Below are positions 1 through 13,929 of a DNA stretch of 64,000 nt, piece by piece. The first letter of the stretch is position 1, and each line of letters begins with the position of its first letter. Origin of the DNA: Vitreoscilla filiformis (GTDB lineage: Bacteria; Pseudomonadota; Gammaproteobacteria; Burkholderiales; Burkholderiaceae_C); NCBI RefSeq assembly GCF_002222655.1, contig NZ_CP022423.1, positions 1,736,001-1,800,000 on the forward strand, read 5' to 3'. A program made the position numbers and the translations under genes. The notes beneath the pieces are model-generated. The model was not told where the DNA came from. It was given only the letters and a program-made list of their open reading frames with translations, and did no database searches.

Positions 1-256
1 TGCGCGCAAGCAGATCGTCGAAGACTTGGCGTCCGAGCACATCGAAGCGGCGCCGTACTGCAAGCCGCTGCACCAGCAGTTCTTCTACCAGCAGCAGGGC
101 TGGCAGCGCGGCCAGTTGCCCTTGGCCGAACGCATCGGCGACCGGGCGCTGGCGCTGCCTTTCCACGCCCATCTGGACGCTGACGAAATCCATTTCCTCG
201 TCAGCACGCTCAAGGACACGGCCACCAACGTCGGGGCCGGAGCCGCCATTTACTGA
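1..256 (+). CDS. DegT/DnrJ/EryC1/StrS-type aminotransferase, C-terminal end only
   Basis: The gene enters from the left edge, so only about 84 C-terminal residues are visible, read in frame from base 2. The tail, with an ALPFHAHLDADEI segment followed by a helix ending VSTLKD, resembles the C-terminus of PLP-dependent sugar aminotransferases of the DegT/DnrJ/EryC1/StrS family. The PLP lysine lies outside the window, so the family call rests on the tail alone. The next gene starts 21 bases after the stop on the same strand, so this is probably the upstream member of the same transcript. Confidence 0.55.
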   Translation, partial: ARKQIVEDLASEHIEAAPYCKPLHQQFFYQQQGWQRGQLPLAERIGDRALALPFHAHLDADEIHFLVSTLKDTATNVGAGAAIY

Positions 257-277: not shown

Positions 278-1141
278 ATGAGCCCCCTGCCGACCTTCCC
301 CACCGTGGCCGAATTGCCCGCCGATGTGCCCCTGGGCCTGTTGAACGGTGCGCTGGCCCCGTACCTCGGCCCCGGTTTGTTGAGCCTGTGCGACAACGTG
401 CCGGTGCCAGCCGATCCGCAAGCCCTGGTCAACCTGCTGACGGCGCGCAACAGCGTGCCCGGCAAAATCAAAAACAAGCTGACGCAAGCGGCGCAGTTCA
501 TCGAGAACTTCAAGCACCGCAAAACCCTGGTGGCGGGCATGGACAGCGCCTACGCGGCCTGCCCGGTGCCCTCGGCGCTGCACCACTGGCTGGCCGCCCT
601 GCCGACGCCGCTGCTGGTGGACACCTGGTACGACGACACCGTGCGCGCCGCCCTGCGCAGCCGCGACGATTGGGCCGAAGTGCAGGGTCTGTCACAAAGC
701 GAGCATTTCGGCACCTGGACAGGCTGGTATGCCGCCGACGGTTCCGCCCTGGCCGACCCGGCTGAAAGCGTGCGCACGGTGTTTTACAAACCGTGGGGCG
801 GCCACGCGCCGGCCAGCAACTACCTGATTTCCGATTCGGATTTCGTTGAAGTGCTGACCGAGATCGACATCCAAACCCCGATCCCGCAGACGGTGCAAGA
901 GCGCCGCAGCGAGCTGGGGTTTGTGTTCCTCGGTTGCCGTTTCAACGACCAACTGGCGCGCAGCTTTGCACGCCAGATCATGAAGCGTTCCAAAGGGCCG
1001 CACTACGCCGTGCTGCCCGAGGAGCCGACGCGCATGGAAGCGCGTTTCTTTGAGGAGCAGGGCATCACCCGCATTGCCTTGCCCTTGGCCGATGTGGCCG
1101 CTGCGTTGTGTTCTTCTTCCACCTTGAGTTTTGCACCATGA
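278..1141 (+). CDS. SIR2-like domain protein
   Basis: The protein is about 287 residues and resembles the SIR2-like (SIR2_2) family, Rossmann-fold relatives of NAD-dependent deacetylases. Visible landmarks are TPLLVDTWYDD near residue 115, the FYKPWGGHAP loop near residue 170, YLISDSDFVEVL, and FLGCRFNDQLAR near residue 230. The ATG at 278 is preferred because TTGGAG lies about seven bases upstream. The stop overlaps the ATG of the ferredoxin gene as ATGA, so the two are probably translationally coupled. In other bacteria SIR2-like proteins bind or cleave NAD, but its role here is unknown. The neighbouring ferredoxin and AAA ATPase, and dra genes 9 kb away, make a link to nitrogen fixation possible. 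That link is inference. Confidence 0.65.
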   Translation: MSPLPTFPTVAELPADVPLGLLNGALAPYLGPGLLSLCDNVPVPADPQALVNLLTARNSVPGKIKNKLTQAAQFIENFKHRKTLVAGMDSAYAACPVPSALHHWLAALPTPLLVDTWYDDTVRAALRSRDDWAEVQGLSQSEHFGTWTGWYAADGSALADPAESVRTVFYKPWGGHAPASNYLISDSDFVEVLTEIDIQTPIPQTVQERRSELGFVFLGCRFNDQLARSFARQIMKRSKGPHYAVLPEEPTRMEARFFEEQGITRIALPLADVAAALCSSSTLSFAP

Positions 1142-1443
1142 CCACGCTCACCATCCTGCCCGCCGGTGTCACCACCGAAGTTGAAGCCGGCACGCCCTTG
1201 CTCCAAGCCCTGATCAACGCCGGGCAGCAATTGATCACCAAGTGCGGTGGCAAAGCCAGTTGCGGCGCGTGCCATTTGTTTGTCACCCAGGGGCGCAAAG
1301 GCGTGTCCAAGCTGACGCCAGCGGAAAACGCCAAACTCGACACCCTGGTCGGCATCGGCAACAAAAGCCGTTTGGCTTGCCAAGTCACCGTGCTGGGCAC
1401 CGAGCCGGTGACGGTGGAGTTGCTGGGCGCCTTGTCGGGCTGA
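1138..1443 (+). CDS. [2Fe-2S] plant-type ferredoxin
   Basis: This 101-residue soluble electron carrier has the plant/adrenodoxin-type cysteine pattern: CGGKASCGAC near residues 37-46, giving three ligands, and a fourth cysteine in RLACQ near residue 81. Length and ligand spacing match small [2Fe-2S] ferredoxins. The start overlaps the SIR2-like gene stop by four bases, and the AAA ATPase gene follows after seven bases, so it lies inside one transcript. Its electron donor and acceptor cannot be read from the sequence. Ferredoxins are common in nitrogen fixation gene clusters, but this one is not identifiable as a named Nif/Fdx protein. Confidence 0.88.
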   Translation: MTTLTILPAGVTTEVEAGTPLLQALINAGQQLITKCGGKASCGACHLFVTQGRKGVSKLTPAENAKLDTLVGIGNKSRLACQVTVLGTEPVTVELLGALSG

Positions 1444-1450
1444 GGCCCTC

Positions 1451-3178
1451 ATGAACCTGCTGCTCGACGCCTCTCAAACCCAGGCCCTGGTGGCCCAGCA
1501 CCCGCGCTTGGCCCACTTGTGCGAGGCGCTGCGGTTGTCGCACCGCATTGAAGTGCCCAGTGGCCAGTTGGCGCTGGCGGAGCTGCACACGCTGGCGGCG
1601 CTGCTGGCCCCGGCCAACGCTGACGCCAACGCGCCCGCTCTGGGCCCGGTGGCGCAAGTGCGGGGCCTGATTGCGGCGCGTGCAGCGGGCGGCCCCACCT
1701 TTGGCAAAACCGACGATCTGGAGCAACTGCTGCCCGCCCTGGCGGCCTACCTGGGCGAAGGTGCCCAGCGCGGCTGGTTGTTTGCCATGCAAGCCAGCGG
1801 GCGCCCGTTGCCGTGGGTGGTGACGCGGCTGGACTACATCGCCCCCTCCAACGAGGAAATGGGCAAGGTGCTGATCGAGCTGAAGGCGCATGTGCGGCTG
1901 GGCATCGTCAGCCAGACCTTGCGCATCGCGGAAGCGGATCTGCGCGGCCTCACCGTGCCCGAGCTGCTGGCGGCCAAAGGCTGGCTGAAAGAATCCCCCG
2001 AATTGCTGGCCGCCTATGACGCGATGGCCGAGCGTTACCTCGCTTGGCGTGCGCACCACGGCCAGCAGTTCTGCGGCCAGGGCATGGGGTTTCACGCGGA
2101 AGACCCGAGCGCCAGCCACCGCGATGTGGACTGGACGCGCAAAGACCAGCTCGTGCTTTCCACCTCCGGCGCCCCAGCGCGGCTGGTGAACGACGAAGGT
2201 GTGTTGCCGCCGCGCAGCGCGGTGCTGGACACCACGGGGGACATCCTCGGCCCTTATCTGCGCAAAGCTGCCAAGAGCAACCGCTATAGCGCCGAAGACG
2301 CGGTGCAGACCCAGCGCGAGGCGCTGGCCGCCGGCTTGTTCACCCAGTTGCCGCTGCACGGTTACGTGTTCATGTTCCACCTGGAGCTGCACCAGCATTT
2401 GTGGGTGCATGTGCTGGATGTGCAGCCCTACGTCTACCGCCCCGATCTCAAAAGCAGCTTGGTGTTGCCGCCCGAGCAAACCGACTTGATCGACATCCTC
2501 ACCGCCGAAATGGATGTGTTGATGGACGACATCGTCGCTGGCAAGGGCGGTGGCACCACGGTGCTGTGTGCTGGGCCGCCGGGCGTGGGCAAGACGCTCA
2601 CCGCCGAGGTCTACGCCGAGATCGTCGGTCGGCCACTTTACCGGGTGCATTCGGGCCAATTGGGGCTGAACGTCGCCAGCATGGAGCACGCGCTCAAGGA
2701 AGCCCTGACACGGGCGCAGCGCTGGGGCGCGGTGATGTTGATCGACGAAGCCGACGTGTACATCAAGCGCCGCGACGACGACATCACCATGAACGCCGTG
2801 GTGGGCGTGTTCCTGCGCGTGCTGGAGTATTTCAATGGCCTGCTGTTCCTCACCACCAACCGGCTGGATGACATCGACGAGGCCATCGTCAGCCGTTGCA
2901 TCGCCCTGATTCGCTACCACGCGCCGGATGAGGCAGCCCGCCAGCGCATCTGGCAGGTGATGGCCGCGCAGTTCGGGCTGGTGCTGGATGAGGCGGAATG
3001 CCGGCGCCTGGCGCAGCGCTTTGCCTGCGCCAGTGGGCGGGACATCAAGGGCCTGGCCAAACTCGTCGCCAAGTACTGCCAGCACAAGGACGAGGCGCCG
3101 ACGCCGGCGGTGTTTGAGCGTTGTGCGGTGTTTCGGGGTTTGGACGGCTTGCCCGCCCCGGTGGAACAGGAGGCGTGA
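1451..3178 (+). CDS. AAA-family ATPase with large unassigned N-terminal region
   Basis: The protein is 575 residues. Residues 1-340 match no family I recognise. From about 370 a classical AAA module follows: Walker A GPPGVGKT near 376, Walker B VMLIDEADVYI near 430, a sensor-1 type LTTNRLDDID near 475, and an arginine-finger style VSRC segment. A small helical lid ends the protein. Such single-ring AAA proteins usually remodel or unfold a partner protein. Placement between a ferredoxin gene and a small acidic protein gene one base downstream suggests the neighbours are partners or substrates. This is inferred from position only. Confidence 0.85.
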   Translation: MNLLLDASQTQALVAQHPRLAHLCEALRLSHRIEVPSGQLALAELHTLAALLAPANADANAPALGPVAQVRGLIAARAAGGPTFGKTDDLEQLLPALAAYLGEGAQRGWLFAMQASGRPLPWVVTRLDYIAPSNEEMGKVLIELKAHVRLGIVSQTLRIAEADLRGLTVPELLAAKGWLKESPELLAAYDAMAERYLAWRAHHGQQFCGQGMGFHAEDPSASHRDVDWTRKDQLVLSTSGAPARLVNDEGVLPPRSAVLDTTGDILGPYLRKAAKSNRYSAEDAVQTQREALAAGLFTQLPLHGYVFMFHLELHQHLWVHVLDVQPYVYRPDLKSSLVLPPEQTDLIDILTAEMDVLMDDIVAGKGGGTTVLCAGPPGVGKTLTAEVYAEIVGRPLYRVHSGQLGLNVASMEHALKEALTRAQRWGAVMLIDEADVYIKRRDDDITMNAVVGVFLRVLEYFNGLLFLTTNRLDDIDEAIVSRCIALIRYHAPDEAARQRIWQVMAAQFGLVLDEAECRRLAQRFACASGRDIKGLAKLVAKYCQHKDEAPTPAVFERCAVFRGLDGLPAPVEQEA

Positions 3179-3179
3179 C

Positions 3180-3443
3180 ATGGCGGTTGAGCTGCCCGAA
3201 AGCTGGGTGATCGCCGAAATGATCACCCATGACTACATCTGGCGTGGCGCCGGCCTGACCTGCGACGAAGCCCGCGAGGCGCTGCTGCAAGCCTGGCACC
3301 AACACCGCCGCAGCATGCTGGCCCAACTGCCACAACTGGAAGCCAGCTTGCCCGAAGCGGCGCAGATGCCGCAGCACTTCAAGATTCGTTATTTCGCCTA
3401 CGAGCGCGGCGCGGGCTACCGCGACACGACGCGTTTGGTGTGA
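3180..3443 (+). CDS. small protein of unknown function
   Basis: An 87-residue soluble protein whose ATG lies directly after the AAA ATPase stop (one base between), with AGGAGG just upstream at the end of that gene. It is rich in acidic and aromatic residues, begins MAVELPESWVIAEMI, and ends in an aromatic stretch FKIRYFAYERGAGYRD. It has no signal peptide, transmembrane segment or metal motif. I do not recognise the family. The tight spacing to the ATPase suggests an adaptor, substrate or regulator of that ATPase. The downstream HD-like gene overlaps or follows within 20 bases. Confidence 0.7.
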   Translation: MAVELPESWVIAEMITHDYIWRGAGLTCDEAREALLQAWHQHRRSMLAQLPQLEASLPEAAQMPQHFKIRYFAYERGAGYRDTTRLV

Positions 3444-3460
3444 AGCCTCCGGTGGCGCCC

Positions 3461-4300
3461 ATGTCTGCTTTGTACGATCTCAATCAAGCGTGGTGGCACA
3501 TCGCGCAAGCCGTGGCCGAGCGCGCCGAACCGACGCTGGCGGCAGAGGAAGCCACCGCCCTCAGCCTCGCCAAAGTCGCCGACGCCATTGGCCGCGCCAC
3601 CCCCGCCGAGCGTTGGCATGGGCTGGCCGCTGTGTTGATGGCGCCGCACCCCTCCCACGGCCTGCGTGCTTGGCGGGTGGCGGGTTTGCTGGGCGTGCTG
3701 CTGCCCGAGGTCGAAGGGCTGTTCGGGGTGCCGCAACTGTCGGATGCGGCCACGTCCATCGATGTCGGGCGGCACCAGTTGGCGCTGGTGGACGAATGCG
3801 CCCGCGTCCACGCGCCGCTGGCGGTACGCTTTGCCGCCTTGGCGCACAAGATCGGCAAAGCCGGCACCCCGCGTGACATCTGGCCCAGCCACTACAAACA
3901 CGAGCAGCGCGCCCACGCGGCGCTGGATCGCTGGGCGGTGTGGCTGGCCCTGCCGCCGGAGGCGCTCACACTGGCCCGCTGGGTGGTGGACGAGGCCGAC
4001 CGCATCCACCGTGTCAGCGACCTGCGTGCTGGCCCCATTGCCGCCATGTTGGAGCGGCTGCAAGCCCCCAGCGAGCCGGAGCGCTTCGAACAGTTGCTGC
4101 TGGTGTGTACCTGCGATTGGGCGGCCCACGACGGCCACAGCGCCGCCACCTACCCCAAAGCCCCCAAGCTGCGCCGCGCCCTGGCGGCCTACCTCGCCAC
4201 CGACGTGACCGGCCTGGACGCCGACGCCGCTTTGCACGCCCGGGCCCAGGCCATCGCCACGGCGCTGCACCGGCGTTCCCCTTCCTCCACCCAAGGCTGA
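3461..4300 (+). CDS. Cca-like HD-domain protein lacking the nucleotidyltransferase domain
   Basis: The 279-residue protein aligns by eye with the HD domain that follows the catalytic part of bacterial CCA-adding tRNA nucleotidyltransferases. It has the conserved LLPEVEGLFGVPQ, then IDVGRHQLALVDE, RFAALAHKIGK, WPSHYKHEQRA and a second DEADRIHRVSDLRAG helix pair. The nucleotidyltransferase domain is absent. The canonical His-Asp pair reads His-Lys (AHKIGK instead of HDLGK), so metal-dependent phosphohydrolase activity is doubtful. ATG 3461 is chosen, though a GTG at 3440 overlapping the previous stop is also possible. It lies in the six-gene run, so it may be a recycled RNA- or nucleotide-binding module. 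Confidence 0.75.
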   Translation: MSALYDLNQAWWHIAQAVAERAEPTLAAEEATALSLAKVADAIGRATPAERWHGLAAVLMAPHPSHGLRAWRVAGLLGVLLPEVEGLFGVPQLSDAATSIDVGRHQLALVDECARVHAPLAVRFAALAHKIGKAGTPRDIWPSHYKHEQRAHAALDRWAVWLALPPEALTLARWVVDEADRIHRVSDLRAGPIAAMLERLQAPSEPERFEQLLLVCTCDWAAHDGHSAATYPKAPKLRRALAAYLATDVTGLDADAALHARAQAIATALHRRSPSSTQG

Positions 4301-4306
4301 CCGACC

Positions 4307-4666
4307 ATGTACGCCCGCGCCCTGTTCGACATCATCCACACCAGCGGCGACCAGGTGCTGCAACTCGTGCTCCCCCTGCAAGGCGGCGCCGATGAGCTGT
4401 TCGCCAGCCGCAACACCCTGGCGGTGGTGGAGGATCATTTGCTCACCGTGGCCCACACCCTGGCGCACTTGCCGCCGGTGGTGTTGCTGCGGTTGCCGCA
4501 GGTGGATTGGTCGGGCTGGTCGGCGCTGCACCAGGCCCTGCGCTGGAAAACCGAGCCGCGCCGCGACGTGGTGTGGTACGGCGTTTGTTCCCTGCTGCCA
4601 GCCACGCTGGTGCTGCTCGACAAACTGCGCGTGGCCGAACCCGAGTGGTTTGAGATCCAGTATTGA
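4307..4666 (+). CDS. small protein of unknown function, last gene of the SIR2/ferredoxin/AAA run
   Basis: This 119-residue protein begins MYARALFDIIHTSGDQVLQ, six bases after the stop of the Cca-like gene. It is leucine-rich (HLPPVVLLRLPQVDW) and has a moderately hydrophobic C-terminal part (YGVCSLLPATLVLLDKL), too interrupted by charges for a confident membrane segment. I recognise no family or catalytic motif. It appears to close the operon: the next gene, at 4720, is on the opposite strand and convergent. Any function is unknown. Confidence 0.65.
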   Translation: MYARALFDIIHTSGDQVLQLVLPLQGGADELFASRNTLAVVEDHLLTVAHTLAHLPPVVLLRLPQVDWSGWSALHQALRWKTEPRRDVVWYGVCSLLPATLVLLDKLRVAEPEWFEIQY

Positions 4667-5145: not shown

Positions 5146-5913
5146 ATGAACACGCCCAACACGTCCCCAGACACCGCCGCCCGTGCGTTTTTCCAAGCAC
5201 TGCACCAAGCATTCGATCAAACCCTGGTGGCCTACCAAGGCCAGCCGGCTTGGCTGGAGGCGTTGTTGTCGCAGGCGTTTGACAGTTTTCAGGGCAACCT
5301 CGCTGCGCAATGTGACGGGGAACCGCCCTTGGCCTGCCATCGTGGTTGCGACAGTTGCTGCACCCTGCGCGTGAGCGCCACAGCGCCCGAGGTGCTGTTG
5401 GTGGCGCGTTTTCTGCGTGCGGTGCAGCCGCGCTTGCTGGAGCGTGGCATCGACTTGGTCGGGCGCTTGCGCGAGGCCAATGCCCGCACCCAAGGTCTGA
5501 GCGAAGCCGAGCGTGTGGCCTTGCGCCAGCCGTGCCCGTTTGTGGCGCAGGGCGTGTGTGTGGTGTACGGTGTGCGCCCTTTGGCTTGCCGGGGCCACGC
5601 TTCGCACGATGTGGTGGCCTGCCGTCAAGCGGCTGCCGGCGAGGTGGCGCAAGTGCCCTACAGCCAGGGCCACTGGATGGTGCGCAGCTTGGTGCAAAAC
5701 GCTTTGCAATCGGCCCTGCGCGAAAGCGGGCGCGCCTGGGCCAGCTACGAGCTGAACCACGCCCTGTGCTTGGCGCTGGACGATGCGCAAGCCGAAGCCG
5801 CTTGGCTGGCTGGCGCCGATCCTTTGGCCGCCGCCGCATTGCCCGAAGCAGCGGCTGAGGCTCCCGAAATGGCGCGTGTGTTTGATCAGCTCAAGCCCAC
5901 GGCTGCCCAGTGA
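5146..5913 (+). CDS. YkgJ-like cysteine cluster protein
   Basis: The 255-residue protein carries the zinc/iron-chelating CxxxCxxCC pattern (CHRGCDSCC near residue 65) of the YkgJ family. Further cysteines fall at PCPFVAQGVC near residue 129 and at PLACRGHA near residue 148, completing the family's 8-Cys set. ATG 5146 is preferred over an upstream in-frame GTG at 5086 because family similarity starts after it. Family members are proposed to bind a metal ion, but their biochemical role is not settled. The next gene overlaps the end or follows within 40 bases. Confidence 0.8.
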   Translation: MNTPNTSPDTAARAFFQALHQAFDQTLVAYQGQPAWLEALLSQAFDSFQGNLAAQCDGEPPLACHRGCDSCCTLRVSATAPEVLLVARFLRAVQPRLLERGIDLVGRLREANARTQGLSEAERVALRQPCPFVAQGVCVVYGVRPLACRGHASHDVVACRQAAAGEVAQVPYSQGHWMVRSLVQNALQSALRESGRAWASYELNHALCLALDDAQAEAAWLAGADPLAAAALPEAAAEAPEMARVFDQLKPTAAQ

Positions 5914-9522: not shown

Positions 9523-9771
9523 CTAAACGCTCTTGCCCTTGAGCAAACGCGCCTGCTCCGACGGGCTGTAATTGCTGAACGCTCCCTGCGCATGTGCCAC
9601 GCGCCGGTGCGCCATGCGGATGGCTTCGATCTTGCCCGCCGGGGCCAGGCGCGACACGATTTTGGTCAGATCGGCGCTGCCGCACGTTGGGCAGGTGGGC
9701 ACCATCTCGCCGCGCACCAGGCGTTCAAACTCGGCGTGGCAGGCGTTGCATTGGTATTCAAACAGCGGCAT
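9523..9771 (-). CDS. FmdB-family zinc-ribbon protein
   Basis: An 82-residue protein beginning MPLFEYQCNACHAEFERLV with two CxxC pairs (CNAC near residue 8 and CPTC near residue 29), the FmdB-type zinc ribbon thought to act as a small regulator. The C-terminal half (HRRVAHAQGAFSNYSPSEQ) is an extension seen in longer family members. It lies 66 bases downstream of the NifO-like gene on the same strand, so it is probably the last member of the dra operon. FmdB proteins are named after a formamidase operon, and no link to nitrogenase is established. Confidence 0.8.
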   Translation of the reverse strand: MPLFEYQCNACHAEFERLVRGEMVPTCPTCGSADLTKIVSRLAPAGKIEAIRMAHRRVAHAQGAFSNYSPSEQARLLKGKSV

Positions 9772-9837
9772 GGCAGCCTCGACAAGGAGAGTGGATCGGG
9801 ACACAACATCACACCCGCCTTGTCGGATTTGGCAACT

Positions 9838-10278
9838 TCACGCCACCGAGGGCGCCGGGGTGGCGCAGCGTTCGGTGGGAGAAGCGCAACCTTCAAGGCT
9901 GGGCTGGGCTGTGATTGCAGGATTCAGGCCCACCCAAGCGTCGATCTCGGCGGTGTCGAACCCGACGTGGCGGCTGCCGTCGTCGGCGCGTTGCATCAGC
10001 GGGCGGCGGATGAGCAGCGGCTCGGCGATGAGCAAGGCCAACGCGGTTTCGGCGTTCAGTTCTTCAGGCACCACGTCGCCATTTTTCACACGTGGCGCGG
10101 CGCGGTTGAACCACGCCGGCACCGGCAGCGGCGCCAAAAAAGCCAGCAGCGATTCCCGCGTCCACGCTTCGGCCAGCAAGCTGCGGCGCTCCAGCGTGTG
10201 GCCGGCAGCCTCCAGGGCGGCGCGCTGGCGGGCGTTGCCGCCGCAGCCGGGTTTTTCAAAGAACACAAGGTGGGTCAT
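9838..10278 (-). CDS. nitrogenase-associated ArsC/NifO-like protein
   Basis: The 146-residue protein has the thioredoxin-like ArsC/Spx fold, with MTHLVFFEKPGCGGNARQR at the N-terminus (single cysteine in PGCGGN), TRESLLAFL near residue 40 and LLIRRPLMQ near residue 88. The GCGGN variant and NPAITA tail match the nitrogenase-associated branch of the family, which includes NifO, described as affecting nitrate and molybdenum use during nitrogen fixation. True arsenate reductases have a different catalytic loop. It follows the SagB-type gene by 39 bases on the same strand, so it is probably co-transcribed with draTG. Confidence 0.8.
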   Translation of the reverse strand: MTHLVFFEKPGCGGNARQRAALEAAGHTLERRSLLAEAWTRESLLAFLAPLPVPAWFNRAAPRVKNGDVVPEELNAETALALLIAEPLLIRRPLMQRADDGSRHVGFDTAEIDAWVGLNPAITAQPSLEGCASPTERCATPAPSVA

Positions 10279-10317
10279 GGCGGGTCTCCTGGTGCATAGG
10301 AATGGGGTCTGCGGGGC

Positions 10318-12027
10318 TCACGTTGCCGGGCGGGGGGCCTGCAAATGGGCGTACGGCGGTTCAGACGCAATGCGCCCATCCTCCACCCGCCGCCCGATGG
10401 TGAAGTGGTAAACGCTTTGCAGCGCGGCACCGTGTTGGGCGTCCATGCCGCTGGCGGTGTGGGGCAGGCCGATGAGCTGGTGCAGCCCGTCGTCAAAAAA
10501 ACAGCCGATGCCGGTGCCCGCCAAGCCGGCGGCCTCGGCTTCGAGGTAGAGCACCTGGCCGATGAGGCCGGCTTCCTGCAACCGCTGGCGGTAGGCGTGG
10601 GGGGCGGGCAGGCCATCGGCGCTGCACCAGTCGTCCCATTGAGCGAGCAGGGCCACGCCCAGCATGGCATCCGAGCCCAGCGCTTGGTGACAGTTGAGCG
10701 TGCGCAGCGTGCCAGCCAGCGCCGGGTTGTCGGCTAAACGCCGTAACGGCAAACCTGCCGGCGCTTGTGGCACCTCATCCCAATCCAGCATCGCCGGTAA
10801 AACTCCGCGCAACCGCGCCAACGCCCCCGTACCGCGCCCCAACACATAAGCCCCCGCCGCCAGCCCCTCCACGCGATGCACGAACAGCAGCACCTGCACC
10901 GCCGGGGCACCGGCCAAGGCGTCAAACGGCGCCCGCTCCGGCGCCAGCGCTGCCAGCACGGGCCACAACTGCGCTGCCTCCATGCACGCCCGCGCATCAA
11001 ACCGCTGCGCACTGCGCCGCTGCCGAACCACCCGCGCCGCAACCGCTTTCCCCCCCACGCCCAGCACATCAGCTCCCTCTCCCATCTCGGGAGAGGGCGG
11101 GGGTGAGGGCATGCCCTGCGCACTCGCCCGCGCCACCTCCTCAATCACCGGCCAGCGGTACATCGGATGCGCATCCAAGCGATTCGGCTGCCCAAACCAC
11201 GCCGCCACCCGCTCCGGTGGCAACGCCCCGGCGCGGGCGGGGGCGTCGGCGGGCAGCAGCTCAAACAAACTGTCCGCATCCTCGCGTTCCGCTGCACCGA
11301 AGTCCGCATTGCGATCCAACCCCAAGCGCGCCGCCAAAGCCGGCAACGGCAAAGCCACCGGCACCAAACGCCAACCCAACAGCGCCGCCGCCACCCGCAG
11401 TGCGCCGATGGCGTGGCCCGCGTCCAACTGGCAGTAACGGAAAGCCCGCTCGCCATACTTCCAAGCCTCACGCCAATGGATGCTGGACAGCGCCACCCAC
11501 GCCCGTGCCGTCTCCCCCAAGGCCGCACGCGCCAGCGGCGCAAACGCGGCGCGGCGCTCCAGCGCGTGGGCGTGGGGGGCGTAGTGGTAAAGGCCGTCGC
11601 ACAACTCGGGATCGGTGTCCGGCAGACCGTGCAGCCAGAGCCACCCTTCCGTCGGGTGCAGGTTGCCACTGGACGGGTTGATGCGCACCGCCCAGCGATC
11701 CGGCCCGGCCTGCTTCCACGCCGCCAACGCCAAACTCAGTTCGAACAACAACCCGAGGTGAACGCGGTCCAACGGCTGCGCCGGGCGCGGCTGGGCCCAG
11801 GCCGACCACGGCGCGTCGGGCTCGGTGGCGGCGTTGGCCAAGGGCAGCGGCACCGCATCGGCCCCGATCCAGCGGCGAAACGGGCTGGGTTGCGCGTCCC
11901 AATCCAGCGTTTCGGGGCCACGGGCGTAGGCGTTCAGGTGATGTTTGGTGCGCTGGTGGTAGCCCTGCACTTGGCGCAGGGCGTCGGCCAGGGAGTCGGC
12001 GGGCGAGGGGGCGAGCGTGTCAGACAT
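10318..12027 (-). CDS. SagB-type nitroreductase-fold oxidoreductase in the dra operon
   Basis: This 569-residue protein contains two nitroreductase-like halves. The first has the family's flavin-site sequence RINPSSGNLHPTEGW near residue 120. The second has VVRQRRSAQRFD near residue 343, an NCHQALGSDAML stretch and a C-terminal GIGCFFDD / YHFTIGRR ending. This is the pattern of SagB/ThcOx-type FMN-dependent dehydrogenases in the form often annotated near nitrogen fixation genes. The start overlaps the end of draG by eight bases. Codons near 11071-11112 derive from a REP-like palindrome and encode a proline-rich linker between the halves. Substrate unknown. Oxidation of a peptide or small molecule is a guess. 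Confidence 0.75.
   Translation of the reverse strand: MSDTLAPSPADSLADALRQVQGYHQRTKHHLNAYARGPETLDWDAQPSPFRRWIGADAVPLPLANAATEPDAPWSAWAQPRPAQPLDRVHLGLLFELSLALAAWKQAGPDRWAVRINPSSGNLHPTEGWLWLHGLPDTDPELCDGLYHYAPHAHALERRAAFAPLARAALGETARAWVALSSIHWREAWKYGERAFRYCQLDAGHAIGALRVAAALLGWRLVPVALPLPALAARLGLDRNADFGAAEREDADSLFELLPADAPARAGALPPERVAAWFGQPNRLDAHPMYRWPVIEEVARASAQGMPSPPPSPEMGEGADVLGVGGKAVAARVVRQRRSAQRFDARACMEAAQLWPVLAALAPERAPFDALAGAPAVQVLLFVHRVEGLAAGAYVLGRGTGALARLRGVLPAMLDWDEVPQAPAGLPLRRLADNPALAGTLRTLNCHQALGSDAMLGVALLAQWDDWCSADGLPAPHAYRQRLQEAGLIGQVLYLEAEAAGLAGTGIGCFFDDGLHQLIGLPHTASGMDAQHGAALQSVYHFTIGRRVEDGRIASEPPYAHLQAPRPAT
11071..11112. repeat. REP-like palindromic element inside a coding sequence
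   Basis: A nine-base perfect palindrome CCCTCTCCC-ATCTC-GGGAGAGGG at 11075-11097 is followed by GGGGGTGAGGG. This is the pattern of the dispersed intergenic repeat common in Beta- and Gammaproteobacteria. It falls between the two domains of the SagB-type gene and is read in frame as a Pro/Ser/Glu linker. A related copy lies at 22619-22672. Confidence 0.7.
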
Positions 12028-12961
12028 GGGCCGGTTCCTCCGCCAGTTCACCGGCCAGGGCGAGCAGGGCGCCGGTCTGTTCGGTGATGGCCCGCACCGT
12101 GGCCGGTTGCAGCCGATCCAACCAGTGGCGCGGCAACGCACGGGCGCCGCAGTGTGCGCCCGCCAACATGCCGACGAGCGCACCGGTCGTGTCCGCATCG
12201 TCCCCCTGGTTGACCACGGCGACGATGGCCGCTTCGGCATCCGGCTGGGTGAACAGGCCATGCAGCACGGTTTGCACCGTGTCCACCACATAGGCCGTGG
12301 CGCGGCCTTTGTAGGGAGCGTAACGGAAGATCGGGTAACGCTGCACCCATGCTTCAGCCCAGCCTTGCACCTCGAACACTGAGGCGCCGCGCAGGAGCAA
12401 GCGCGTCATCTGCCCCAGGCCGAGCGTGGCCGCGTCGGACAGCGGGTTGTGGTGCGTCAGCCGCGCCTGCGCCAGCGAGAGCGATTCAAACGCCGCATCG
12501 TTCCACAGCGTGGCCAACACGGCGGGCAGGTTGCGCATCACGGCGCCGTTGCCGGCATCGCCATCGTTTTGCGGCCCGGCCAGGGTGCCTTCGTGCATGA
12601 AACGCAGGATGCCCCGGCGGCAGGTGTTGCCACAGTCCACCGGCTTGCCGCGCCACCAACCGACGTACGCTTGGCCGATGCGGCGCACCAGCGCTTCATC
12701 TCCGTGCGCCAGGGCGCGCAGCTCGGGGGCACCGCCTTGGGTGAGGGCATCGCCCAAGGCGAGGCTCATGGTGGTGTCATCGGTGACTTGGCCGCGTGCC
12801 AGTTTGAGCCAGCCGCCGCCCACCATCTCGCGGTGGGTGCCGTATTGGGCCTGGATTTCACGCGGGCGCATGAATTCCACCGTGGCGCCCAAGGCGTCGC
12901 CGATGGCCAGGCCGAGGTAGGCGCCCAGCGCCTTGTCGAACAAGCGATCCAAATCAGACAT
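12020..12961 (-). CDS. draG: ADP-ribosyl-[dinitrogen reductase] hydrolase
   Basis: DraG removes ADP-ribose from the arginine of nitrogenase Fe protein, reactivating nitrogen fixation when ammonium is used up. The 313-residue protein shows the ADP-ribosylhydrolase dinuclear-metal motifs: GDALGATVEF near residue 19, QVTDDTTMSLALGDAL near residue 54 and NQGDDADTTGALVGM near residue 250. Length fits the family. The start follows the family N-terminus LFDKALGAYLGLAIGDA. Its 5' end overlaps draT by eight bases and its 3' end overlaps the SagB-type gene by eight bases, so all three are probably one transcript. Confidence 0.95.
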   Translation of the reverse strand: MSDLDRLFDKALGAYLGLAIGDALGATVEFMRPREIQAQYGTHREMVGGGWLKLARGQVTDDTTMSLALGDALTQGGAPELRALAHGDEALVRRIGQAYVGWWRGKPVDCGNTCRRGILRFMHEGTLAGPQNDGDAGNGAVMRNLPAVLATLWNDAAFESLSLAQARLTHHNPLSDAATLGLGQMTRLLLRGASVFEVQGWAEAWVQRYPIFRYAPYKGRATAYVVDTVQTVLHGLFTQPDAEAAIVAVVNQGDDADTTGALVGMLAGAHCGARALPRHWLDRLQPATVRAITEQTGALLALAGELAEEPAHV

Positions 12962-13901
12962 AGGAAGCCTCCACTTCATAGTCGCCGCCCAGGGCCAGCA
13001 CTTCTTGCTCACCCTGCAACACCTGGCCGGGCAACATGCCGGGGGCCACCACCACTTTGGACAGGGGCACGCGGGTTTCAAACACCCAATCGCCAAAACA
13101 CGAGGCGGCCTCGCGTGAACGGCTGAACGAGGCGATGTTGTTGAGCCGAATCACACAACGCCGTTCCCGCAACCCTCCGTTGACGACCTGTTCTTCGGCG
13201 CGGGTGCTGCCACGCCAGAGGCGCAGGTGGTGATCGTCGTCGCCCTCGGGGGCCAGGCGGCCAGCGGCGCGGCGCTCGCTGGCGCGGCAACAGGTGAAAC
13301 GTGCCGGTTCGGGGGCGTAGGGCGAGCTGGGTTCGGGCAGGGCGAAGCGGCGCAACGCCCATTGGGTGTACTCGTACACCAGATCCACCTGCTGGTAAAT
13401 GCTGTTGTTGTGATAGCGGCTGGCGGTTTTTTCTTCCAGATATGTCACCCACGGCGGTGAGGGGAAGCGCCCCAAGGGGTCTTTGTGGAACAGCGGTGTC
13501 ATGCCGAATCGGCTTTCCACCCAGCCTTTGAGGACGGCGCCAGCCGGGCCGTTCGAATCCATGCCCCAGCCCTGCAACAGCTTGCGCCAGGAGCTGCGCC
13601 AACGGCGGCCTTCGGTTTCGCACAAGGTGGCGAGTTCTTGGGCGCTGGGTTTTTGCAGGCCGAAGACGATGGTGAGGTAATGGTCGAACACCTCGCCGGC
13701 TTCGCGCAGCGTGTGGGCACGGGCCAGCAGCGCAAACAGCCCTTTGTGCGAGGGCCGCACCCCCGCGATGGACAACAGCGCCGGGTGGGCGTTGAACTCC
13801 AAGCTGGTGAGCACCGGGGCGGGTACGCCGACCAAGTTGGTGCTGTACCAGTGTCGGGGGTGGGGATCAGGTGAGGGGGAATGCTCGGCCGCCAGGTTCA
13901 T
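12954..13901 (-). CDS. draT: NAD(+)-dinitrogen-reductase ADP-D-ribosyltransferase
   Basis: DraT inactivates nitrogenase Fe protein by transferring ADP-ribose from NAD to one arginine when ammonium appears or energy falls. The 315-residue protein shows the family's conserved parts: YSTNLVGVPAPVLTSLEFNAHP at residues 24-45 in overlapping blocks, SRYHNNSIYQQVDLVYEY near residue 166, and CFGDWVFETRVPLSKVV near residue 275. The start is placed at the ATG at 13901. A sigma-54 promoter ends about a dozen bases upstream of it, which would leave almost no leader. No other good start codon lies between it and the conserved STNL segment. Confidence 0.93.
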   Translation of the reverse strand: MNLAAEHSPSPDPHPRHWYSTNLVGVPAPVLTSLEFNAHPALLSIAGVRPSHKGLFALLARAHTLREAGEVFDHYLTIVFGLQKPSAQELATLCETEGRRWRSSWRKLLQGWGMDSNGPAGAVLKGWVESRFGMTPLFHKDPLGRFPSPPWVTYLEEKTASRYHNNSIYQQVDLVYEYTQWALRRFALPEPSSPYAPEPARFTCCRASERRAAGRLAPEGDDDHHLRLWRGSTRAEEQVVNGGLRERRCVIRLNNIASFSRSREAASCFGDWVFETRVPLSKVVVAPGMLPGQVLQGEQEVLALGGDYEVEASYV

Positions 13902-13913
13902 GGGCTGCGGGGC

Positions 13914-13929
13914 TGCAAGCGGTGTGCCA
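13914..13929 (-). promoter_or_regulatory. sigma-54 (RpoN) promoter upstream of draT
   Basis: On the minus strand the sequence reads TGGCAC-ACCGC-TTGCA, a full match to the -24/-12 consensus TGGCAC-N5-TTGCA with exact spacing. Such promoters need an activator such as NifA or NtrC and fit nitrogen control of draTG. The predicted start of transcription, about 12 bases past the GC of the -12 element, falls at about 13903, nearly at the draT ATG. Confidence 0.8.

Follow-up and report, generated by a model that had tools for sequence, protein, structure and literature searches.

A six-gene run at the end of a nif operon in Vitreoscilla filiformis: two modules and four enzyme folds that look catalytically dead

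The window analysed here is a 64,000-nucleotide stretch of the 3.79-Mb Vitreoscilla filiformis genome, starting at position 1736001 of contig C1 (NZ_CP022423.1). Six plus-strand genes, SIR2, FDX, AAA, SM4, HD5 and SM6, span window positions 278-4666. That they belong to a nif operon is near certain, and we read them as the 3' end of one of the NifA/sigma-54 type. They fall into two modules: an older DegT-SIR2-FDX module, whose first gene ends at the window start, and AAA-SM4-HD5-SM6, which is lineage-specific and separate from it. In this genome a single gene run holds both, probably as one transcript. To judge from their residues, four of the encoded folds (DegT, SIR2, HD5 and SM6) appear to have lost catalysis while remaining under purifying selection, and the AAA motor and the ferredoxin are the only operon parts expected to turn over.

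A gene run at the end of a nif operon

An earlier note on this DNA had described a close-packed run of six genes, and this is borne out: all lie on one strand, with one 4-bp overlap and intergenic gaps of at most 17 bp. The end of DegT is 21 bp from the start of SIR2. The features are as follows.

1..256, plus strand: 3' portion of a gene with a DegT/PseC-like aminotransferase fold (the whole gene lies at about L003:16985-18256; Pfam DegT 8e-90)
278-1141, plus strand: SIR2, 287 amino acids; SIR2_2 fold, ThsA/KomC/DSR2-like; Pfam SIR2_2 4.5e-19
1138-1443, plus strand: FDX, 101 amino acids; 2Fe-2S ferredoxin, ISC-like; overlaps SIR2 by 4 bp; Fer2 1e-9
1451-3178, plus strand: AAA, 575 amino acids; classic AAA ATPase, AAA 4.9e-17; gap of 7 after FDX
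3180-3443, plus strand: SM4, 87 amino acids; uncharacterised family; gap of 1 after AAA
3461-4300, plus strand: HD5, 279 amino acids; paralogue of the CCA-adding enzyme without its head and with HK in place of HD; gap of 17 after SM4
4307-4666, plus strand: SM6, 119 amino acids; degenerate HepT-like (HEPN) protein lacking RxxxxH; gap of 6 after HD5

An alternative GTG start of HD5 at 3440 would overlap SM4. The ratio of nonsynonymous to synonymous substitution rates (dN/dS) is 0.04-0.34 in 14 pairs covering SIR2, SM6, HD5, SM4 and AAA, the pairs being our own, non-exhaustive selection, which indicates that these are real genes; for the nif DegT it is 0.06-0.29.

The operon context was read by searching named proteins of Paraburkholderia (L152), Methylococcus and Rhizobium against the upstream stretch (L004 and L003) and the window start. 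The matches come in the order isc genes, nifV, nifW, fixB, fixC, fixX, nifA and then nifB; fixA in the same stretch is our own reading. After nifB follow a 4Fe-4S gene, an IscA-like gene, a small gene, a 4Fe4S leucine-rich-repeat gene and two nifZ genes, and after the second nifZ a DUF3024 gene, a cysteine desulfurase gene (nifS-like), nifT, a small gene, DegT, SIR2 and the 2Fe-2S gene. From nifB to the 2Fe-2S gene all are on the plus strand, in the gene order of Paraburkholderia. The nifD gene is not beside the operon and lies at 629.5 kb in the same genome. Two pairs of a TGT-N10-ACA site with a -24/-12-like site occur in L003, one before nifB and one before fixA, where 0.06 are expected; two were reached in 0 of 200 shuffles, each motif singly being at chance level.

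In other diazotrophs the annotated gene orders are similar. That of Paraburkholderia aromaticivorans reads nifB-...-nifZ-nifZ-...-nifT-hyp-DegT-SIR2-2Fe2S, Methylococcus sp. EFPC2 has the same arrangement but with the 2Fe-2S gene preceding SIR2, and Rhizobium etli and Mesorhizobium have nifB-4Fe4S-nifZ-nifT-SIR2. By these orders, DegT-SIR2-FDX has long belonged to the nifB operon. Core nif genes are present at 19 of 19 SIR2 loci. The earlier statement that no known pathway combines these proteins was too strong where SIR2 and FDX are concerned, both being annotated in other nif clusters.

The SIR2 gene has also been recorded in experimental work, cited here from excerpts of the papers. In R. 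capsulatus the operon nifB1-rcc03265-nifZT-rcc03262 includes a "SIR2 family protein", Rcc03262, that was detected in the wild type but not when nifA1-A2 was deleted (PMC6925177). Z. mobilis ZMO1821 has a SIR2-like domain, lies inside the nif cluster (PMC8594446) and is up-regulated under N2 fixation, and a deacetylase function was proposed for it (PMC8600466). PST_1325 of P. stutzeri, a SIR2 family protein, is listed beside nifH (PMC11332353), and in Rhodovulum a SIR2-like gene follows nifT (PMC9412634). The window SIR2 thus resembles rcc03262, ZMO1821 and PST_1325 in lying in or beside nif operons, with NifA dependence in R. capsulatus and up-regulation during N2 fixation in Z. mobilis. In the excerpts these three are called "SIR2 family" or "SIR2-like", with a deacetylase guess; none of the three is in our SIR2 alignment. 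The loss of residues, the near-universality among the order's diazotrophs and the link to AAA, SM4, HD5 and SM6 are absent from these accounts as far as the excerpts go.

Two modules with different distributions

NifD (TIGR01282, E <= 1e-100) was found in 58 of 399 genomes of the order, 56 of them above the family cut-off. The SIR2 profile (E <= 1e-20) matches 60 of the 399, namely 57 of the 58 NifD-positive genomes against 3 of the 341 NifD-negative ones. The exceptions are G135, G201 and G344, which have SIR2 without NifD and whose genera each have NifD-positive members, and G132, which has NifD without SIR2. The matches form two groups, 42 genomes at E < 1e-100 (40 NifD-positive) and 18 at 1.8e-37 to 4.9e-22 (17 NifD-positive, G111 among the 18); both groups track nitrogenase, and in the weaker one SIR2 often lies only a few kb from nifD. 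Both SIR2 and nifD are present in 57 genomes, on the same contig in 37 and within 30 kb in 31 of these. In genome G047, contigs C18 and C39 each carry a SIR2 copy, with a copy of SM6 on the other strand at a distance of about 0.4 kb.

The second module is narrower. AAA (E <= 1e-60) occurs in 24 of the 399 genomes, with 20 strong matches (E < 1e-200) and four weak ones (1e-101 to 1e-75); the strong matches are in 19/58 NifD-positive and 1/341 NifD-negative genomes (G135), and all four weak ones are in NifD-negative genomes. For the other genes subsets of the 399 were searched, 58 NifD-positive and 22 NifD-negative genomes for SM4 and SM6 and 58 of each kind for HD5, the NifD-negative sets deliberately including G135, G201 and G344. 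The HD5 paralogue (E < 1e-86) was found in 11/58 against 0/58, the best NifD-negative matches (<=6.2e-77) being longer, CCA-like frames; SM6 (E < 1e-20) in 21/58 against 1/22 (G135); and SM4 in 9/58, plus a 34-residue piece in G034, against 0/22. Among the 58 NifD-positive genomes, SM4 co-occurs with AAA in nine of nine cases and HD5 in 10 of 11. The earlier guess at a nitrogenase accessory system is strongly supported by the counts for SIR2, AAA and HD5.

The idea that all six genes form one conserved unit is rejected, the full set failing the co-occurrence test that the earlier note had set. At 80 AAA loci, the best of the named genomes with stretches of up to 10 kb on each side, SIR2 is present at 19, FDX at 22 (a count that takes in other ferredoxins, such as ISC ones), SM6 at 21, SM4 at 11 and HD5 at 6; the full set is found at one of the 80 (L064, Roseateles cellulosilyticus), five genes at L058 and four at 12. 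G264, of the same family, has DegT-SIR2-FDX in its nif cluster without AAA. Some of the named loci also belong to the order sample (L078 and L031, for example, are on the same contig).

In a phylum sample of 239 genomes, our own included, NifD was found in 36, SIR2 in 13 and both in 12. Outside the order SIR2 is still diazotroph-specific, yet it is missing from 24 of the 36 NifD-positive genomes of that sample. AAA was found in three of the other 35 NifD-positive genomes (G404, G408, with one stop, and G473), and with stops in G465, which has SIR2 and no NifD.

A redox- or NAD-dependent stress or defence complex was offered as an equal option in the earlier note; as a defence system the operon would be one of the abortive-infection kind, built of SIR2, HEPN, AAA and HD parts. 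These folds are found in defence systems, and the AAA protein gives weak matches in PADLOC (IetA 8.6e-14, TRIP13 6.4e-8), confined to the AAA core and far under the NCBIfam cut-off. The other five proteins have no PADLOC match at 0.01, the catalytic motifs are lost, SIR2 has a conserved place in nif operons and the distribution of the genes tracks NifD. A defence island was rejected on these grounds, and we give it hardly any credence.

Enzyme folds that have lost catalytic residues

In aminotransferases of the DegT type a lysine binds pyridoxal phosphate. An alignment to perosamine synthetase has this lysine replaced by Ser in the window protein, and the column holds Ser, Ala or Phe in 15 of 15 full-length nif DegTs (matches below 900 bp, L051, L062 and L103, being excluded). 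Lys is kept in the two non-nif DegTs taken as controls (L114 and L119) and in perosamine synthetase 3bn1.

The SIR2 fold is confirmed as the ThsA/KomC/DSR2 type; in active SIR2 NADases and deacetylases an Asn and a His are catalytic. The alignment holds 13 of the 19 SIR2 loci together with the window, L130 and L039 (L052, L081 and L096 are contig-edge pieces), and its residue columns were set by alignment with eight non-nif SIR2_2 proteins, all taken by match position. The window protein has Trp at both the Asn and the His position of its non-nif relatives. At the Asn column Trp is found in 16/16 nif proteins against Asn in 8/8 non-nif ones; at the His column, where all eight non-nif proteins have His, Trp, Ile or Leu is found in 10/16 and His in six alphaproteobacterial members. 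One member of the divergent SIR2 group (G111:C13:57131-57898, L161) has Asn at the first site, in the motif NRD, and Met at the His site. An earlier residue register from a profile alignment was discarded (E 0.85, second stretch below 0 bits).

These residues bear on the proposal, put forward for Zymomonas mobilis ZMO1821, that the nif SIR2 deacetylates lysines of Nif proteins. There it was its authors' inference from the family name and from up-regulation in N2 fixation, given in the excerpt of that paper (PMC8600466). The proteins aligned here, which do not include ZMO1821, are of the SIR2_2/ThsA type and have lost the Asn in all 16 and the His in ten, both residues being kept in all eight non-nif relatives. 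A deacetylase is disfavoured by this and appears very improbable.

A SIR2 fold that still binds nicotinamide adenine dinucleotide (NAD) or ADP-ribose would give a different link, to the DraT/DraG switch-off of the Fe protein. The nearby draTG cluster of the earlier note is confirmed, about 7.4 kb downstream of the operon and on the opposite strand:

about 12020-12964, minus strand: DraG, ADP-ribosyl-nitrogenase-reductase hydrolase (ADP_ribosyl_GH 9e-51)
about 12954-13898, minus strand: DraT, nitrogenase-reductase ADP-ribosyltransferase (DRAT 9e-93)
13915..13929, minus strand: sigma-54-like -24/-12 site that matches the consensus exactly, a short way 5' of draT (TGGCACACCGCTTGC)

The window holds nine sigma-54-like matches with up to one mismatch where 12.7 are expected; since this number is not above expectation, it is position that speaks for the site 5' of draT. 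A link to NAD or ADP-ribose is favoured by this proximity, by the predicted SIR2 model, which appears nearest to SIR2 proteins that bind NAD or glycocyclic ADP-ribose (gcADPR), and by the His kept in the six alphaproteobacterial members. The residue losses at both columns speak against it, and draTG is not among the genes listed around SIR2 in the incomplete gene tables for Rhizobium etli, Mesorhizobium and Methylococcus. We regard this link as improbable.

The FDX protein has four cysteines (Cys 36/42/45/81) and matches fdx_isc at 1.5e-13, below that family's cut-off.

HD5 matches residues 171-395 of 409 of the multifunctional CCA enzyme (PRK10885, 1.5e-42) and so covers the part behind the nucleotidyltransferase head. 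Unlike Cca, it has no head (GGxVRD is absent in 6/6) and has lost the HD metal-binding doublet, the aspartate being replaced in 6/6 (HK in three, MH in three; the L058 row was left out of this alignment). It is a second copy beside an intact, full-length Cca in the same genome, near G000:C1:1521620, which retains GGxVRD and HD. The earlier remark on a dead-looking RNA enzyme is right for HD5, and applies also to DegT, SIR2 and SM6.

The window SM6 alone has no family match. As a family, SM6 matches the HepT-like PF01934 at E <= 10 in 5/7 and then 9/18 members (best 8e-5), and its profile retrieves true HepTs at 8.5e-8 to 5.4e-5. SM6 thus resembles the HepT of MntA-HepT (MNT-HEPN) toxin-antitoxin systems in profile and in common anchor residues (W, LW, P). 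It differs in lacking RxxxxH, found in 0/18 SM6 proteins against 8/8 HepTs (eight of the 16 weak SM6 matches), and in its neighbours: an MntA-like gene adjoins all eight HepTs, and no MNT domain (MntA) is among the six operon proteins, SM6 sitting by AAA instead. Searches of solved structures gave no relevant chain for HD5 alone and no HepT for the SM6 profile (best E 0.18), so both assignments rest on family-profile and alignment evidence. The genome carries a second strong SM6-like gene, with a ModE-like gene in its vicinity (G000:C1:2848665-2849009; L131, about 9666).

SM4 has no NCBIfam match, and its sole Pfam match, at 0.2, is chance. There are 292 homologues; of the 120 listed, those that bear a name are called "hypothetical" or "uncharacterized".

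The AAA ATPase and its neighbours

The motifs of AAA are intact: Walker A (GPPGVGKT), Walker B (LIDEAD), sensor 1 (TTN) and arginine finger (SR) are conserved across alignments of 21 and 60 rows, the latter holding 59 of 78 loci and the window (L055 and L120, with a stop inside the match, were left out). In its classic AAA core the protein is like remodellers of the CDC48/VCP type, and ATP-driven remodelling is expected of it. It differs from them in its N-terminal region of about 340 residues and in its near restriction to nitrogenase-bearing genomes. The predicted model (mean pLDDT, predicted local distance difference test, of 75) is good in the N-terminal region and poor in the core. In fold searches with this model AAA cores took up the match lists, and the N-terminal region gained no assignment; we claim no novelty for it.

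Of the 21 loci with SM6, 15 have it within 30 bp of AAA, downstream at seven and upstream at eight, and this pairing on either side suggests a physical adaptor. In Ideonella (L048 and L050), the closest relatives, AAA comes 1.7 kb after FDX, in L048 with an FAD-dependent oxidoreductase-like gene between them, and SM4, HD5 and SM6 were not seen in the stretch around AAA. Three non-nif AAA relatives lie on plasmids, in accessory regions with no common partner seen.

The 89.6-kb plasmid of Methylococcus sp. EFPC2 (L002, L130) carries a large nif set including nifHDK, together with clpX, clpP, lon, AAA and SIR2. In Roseateles cellulosilyticus, NadC/ModD-like (by our reading of the sequence) and ModE-like genes lie between FDX and AAA (L064:8964-9905).

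How the operon tail may work

We infer that the operon tail encodes an AAA remodeller with pseudoenzyme adaptors that acts on a nitrogenase component, a tentative reading that we hold to be a little short of probable. AAA would form an ATP-driven remodeller, for which the ClpX of nif clusters and the Rubisco activases are functional analogies. The distribution tracks nitrogenase, and the client would therefore most simply be nitrogenase or a cofactor-assembly protein: a maturing, inhibited or oxygen-damaged form of the Fe protein, the MoFe protein or a protein of cofactor assembly. The pseudoenzymes may have been retained as platforms for binding; SM6 would be the nearest partner or adaptor of AAA, and HD5 and SM4 would be additional adaptors. 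DegT-SIR2-FDX would be an accessory complex of the nifB operon, in which a Nif protein or some ligand may be bound by the dead SIR2 and DegT folds, with FDX as a possible source of electrons or of an Fe-S cluster. A narrower form, in which the AAA motor is an activase or repair chaperone dedicated to nitrogenase and draws in its client by way of the domesticated dead folds SM6, HD5 and possibly SIR2 and DegT, seems to us fairly unlikely.

Several observations weigh against an AAA remodeller of nitrogenase. Most diazotrophs lack AAA (39 of the 58 NifD-positive genomes of the order and 32 of the other 35 in the phylum sample), and it is thus not a basic requirement. In G404 and G408, AAA and NifD are present with no SIR2 match, which indicates that the two modules can occur apart. 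AAA also frequently lies away from nif genes, a strict nif marker being present at 33/80 of its loci and a core marker at 25/80, and among same-contig pairs of AAA and nifD 3/10 are within 30 kb. Pairs of NifA and sigma-54 sites 5' of AAA were found at 7/71 loci against 3/71 on the opposite strand, a weak signal. The window SM6 is itself 1.1 kb away from AAA. Six alphaproteobacterial nif SIR2s still have the His, and the divergent G111 protein keeps the Asn, with Met at the His site. The counts and Fisher tests ignore ancestry. Searches of the open-licence PMC literature, supplements excluded, for AAA with nif genes, a pseudoenzyme with nitrogenase, or DegT with nifZ and nifB gave no relevant paper.

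Damage repair is a close rival or a special case of the same reading, as suggested by the genes near AAA elsewhere: GST at 28, FAH at 14, Rieske at 13, SelO at 10 and Grx4 at 4 of the 80 loci, with BolA and 2Fe-2S proteins also among the neighbours. In aerobic diazotrophs, AAA and these neighbours would clear or reload Fe-S proteins that have been damaged, and nitrogenase would be just one client. The named carriers of AAA include methanotrophs, Beijerinckia, Derxia and Azorhizobium, which live aerobically. The roles of the neighbours are taken from family names, however, and of such genes the window operon holds a ferredoxin only; we consider general repair a real contender, if an unlikely one.

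If the narrower form of the reading, the dedicated activase or repair chaperone, is right, the operon tail would represent an undescribed class of post-translational nitrogenase machine, in which whole enzyme folds have been turned into nitrogenase adaptors or metabolite sensors. Four retired enzyme folds in one operon are also an unusual case of pseudoenzyme recruitment. The AAA-SM6 pair is a concrete candidate for an ATP-driven nitrogenase helper, and bears on the transfer of nif clusters to new hosts and on nitrogenase survival in aerobes. The SIR2 gene, nearly universal in the order's nitrogenase-bearing genomes, has no tested function in the literature found; its family name has already prompted the deacetylase hypothesis, which the sequence disfavours.

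Other genes of the window

A gene of the CxxCxxCC (YkgJ) type lies 3' of the operon at window positions 5146-5913, and a YkgJ-family gene is also found near SIR2 on the Methylococcus plasmid. On the minus strand, a row of zinc-ribbon, ArsC-like (NifO-like), nitroreductase-fold, DraG and DraT genes occupies 9526-13898; zinc-ribbon and ArsC genes also come after the nif operon of Paraburkholderia.

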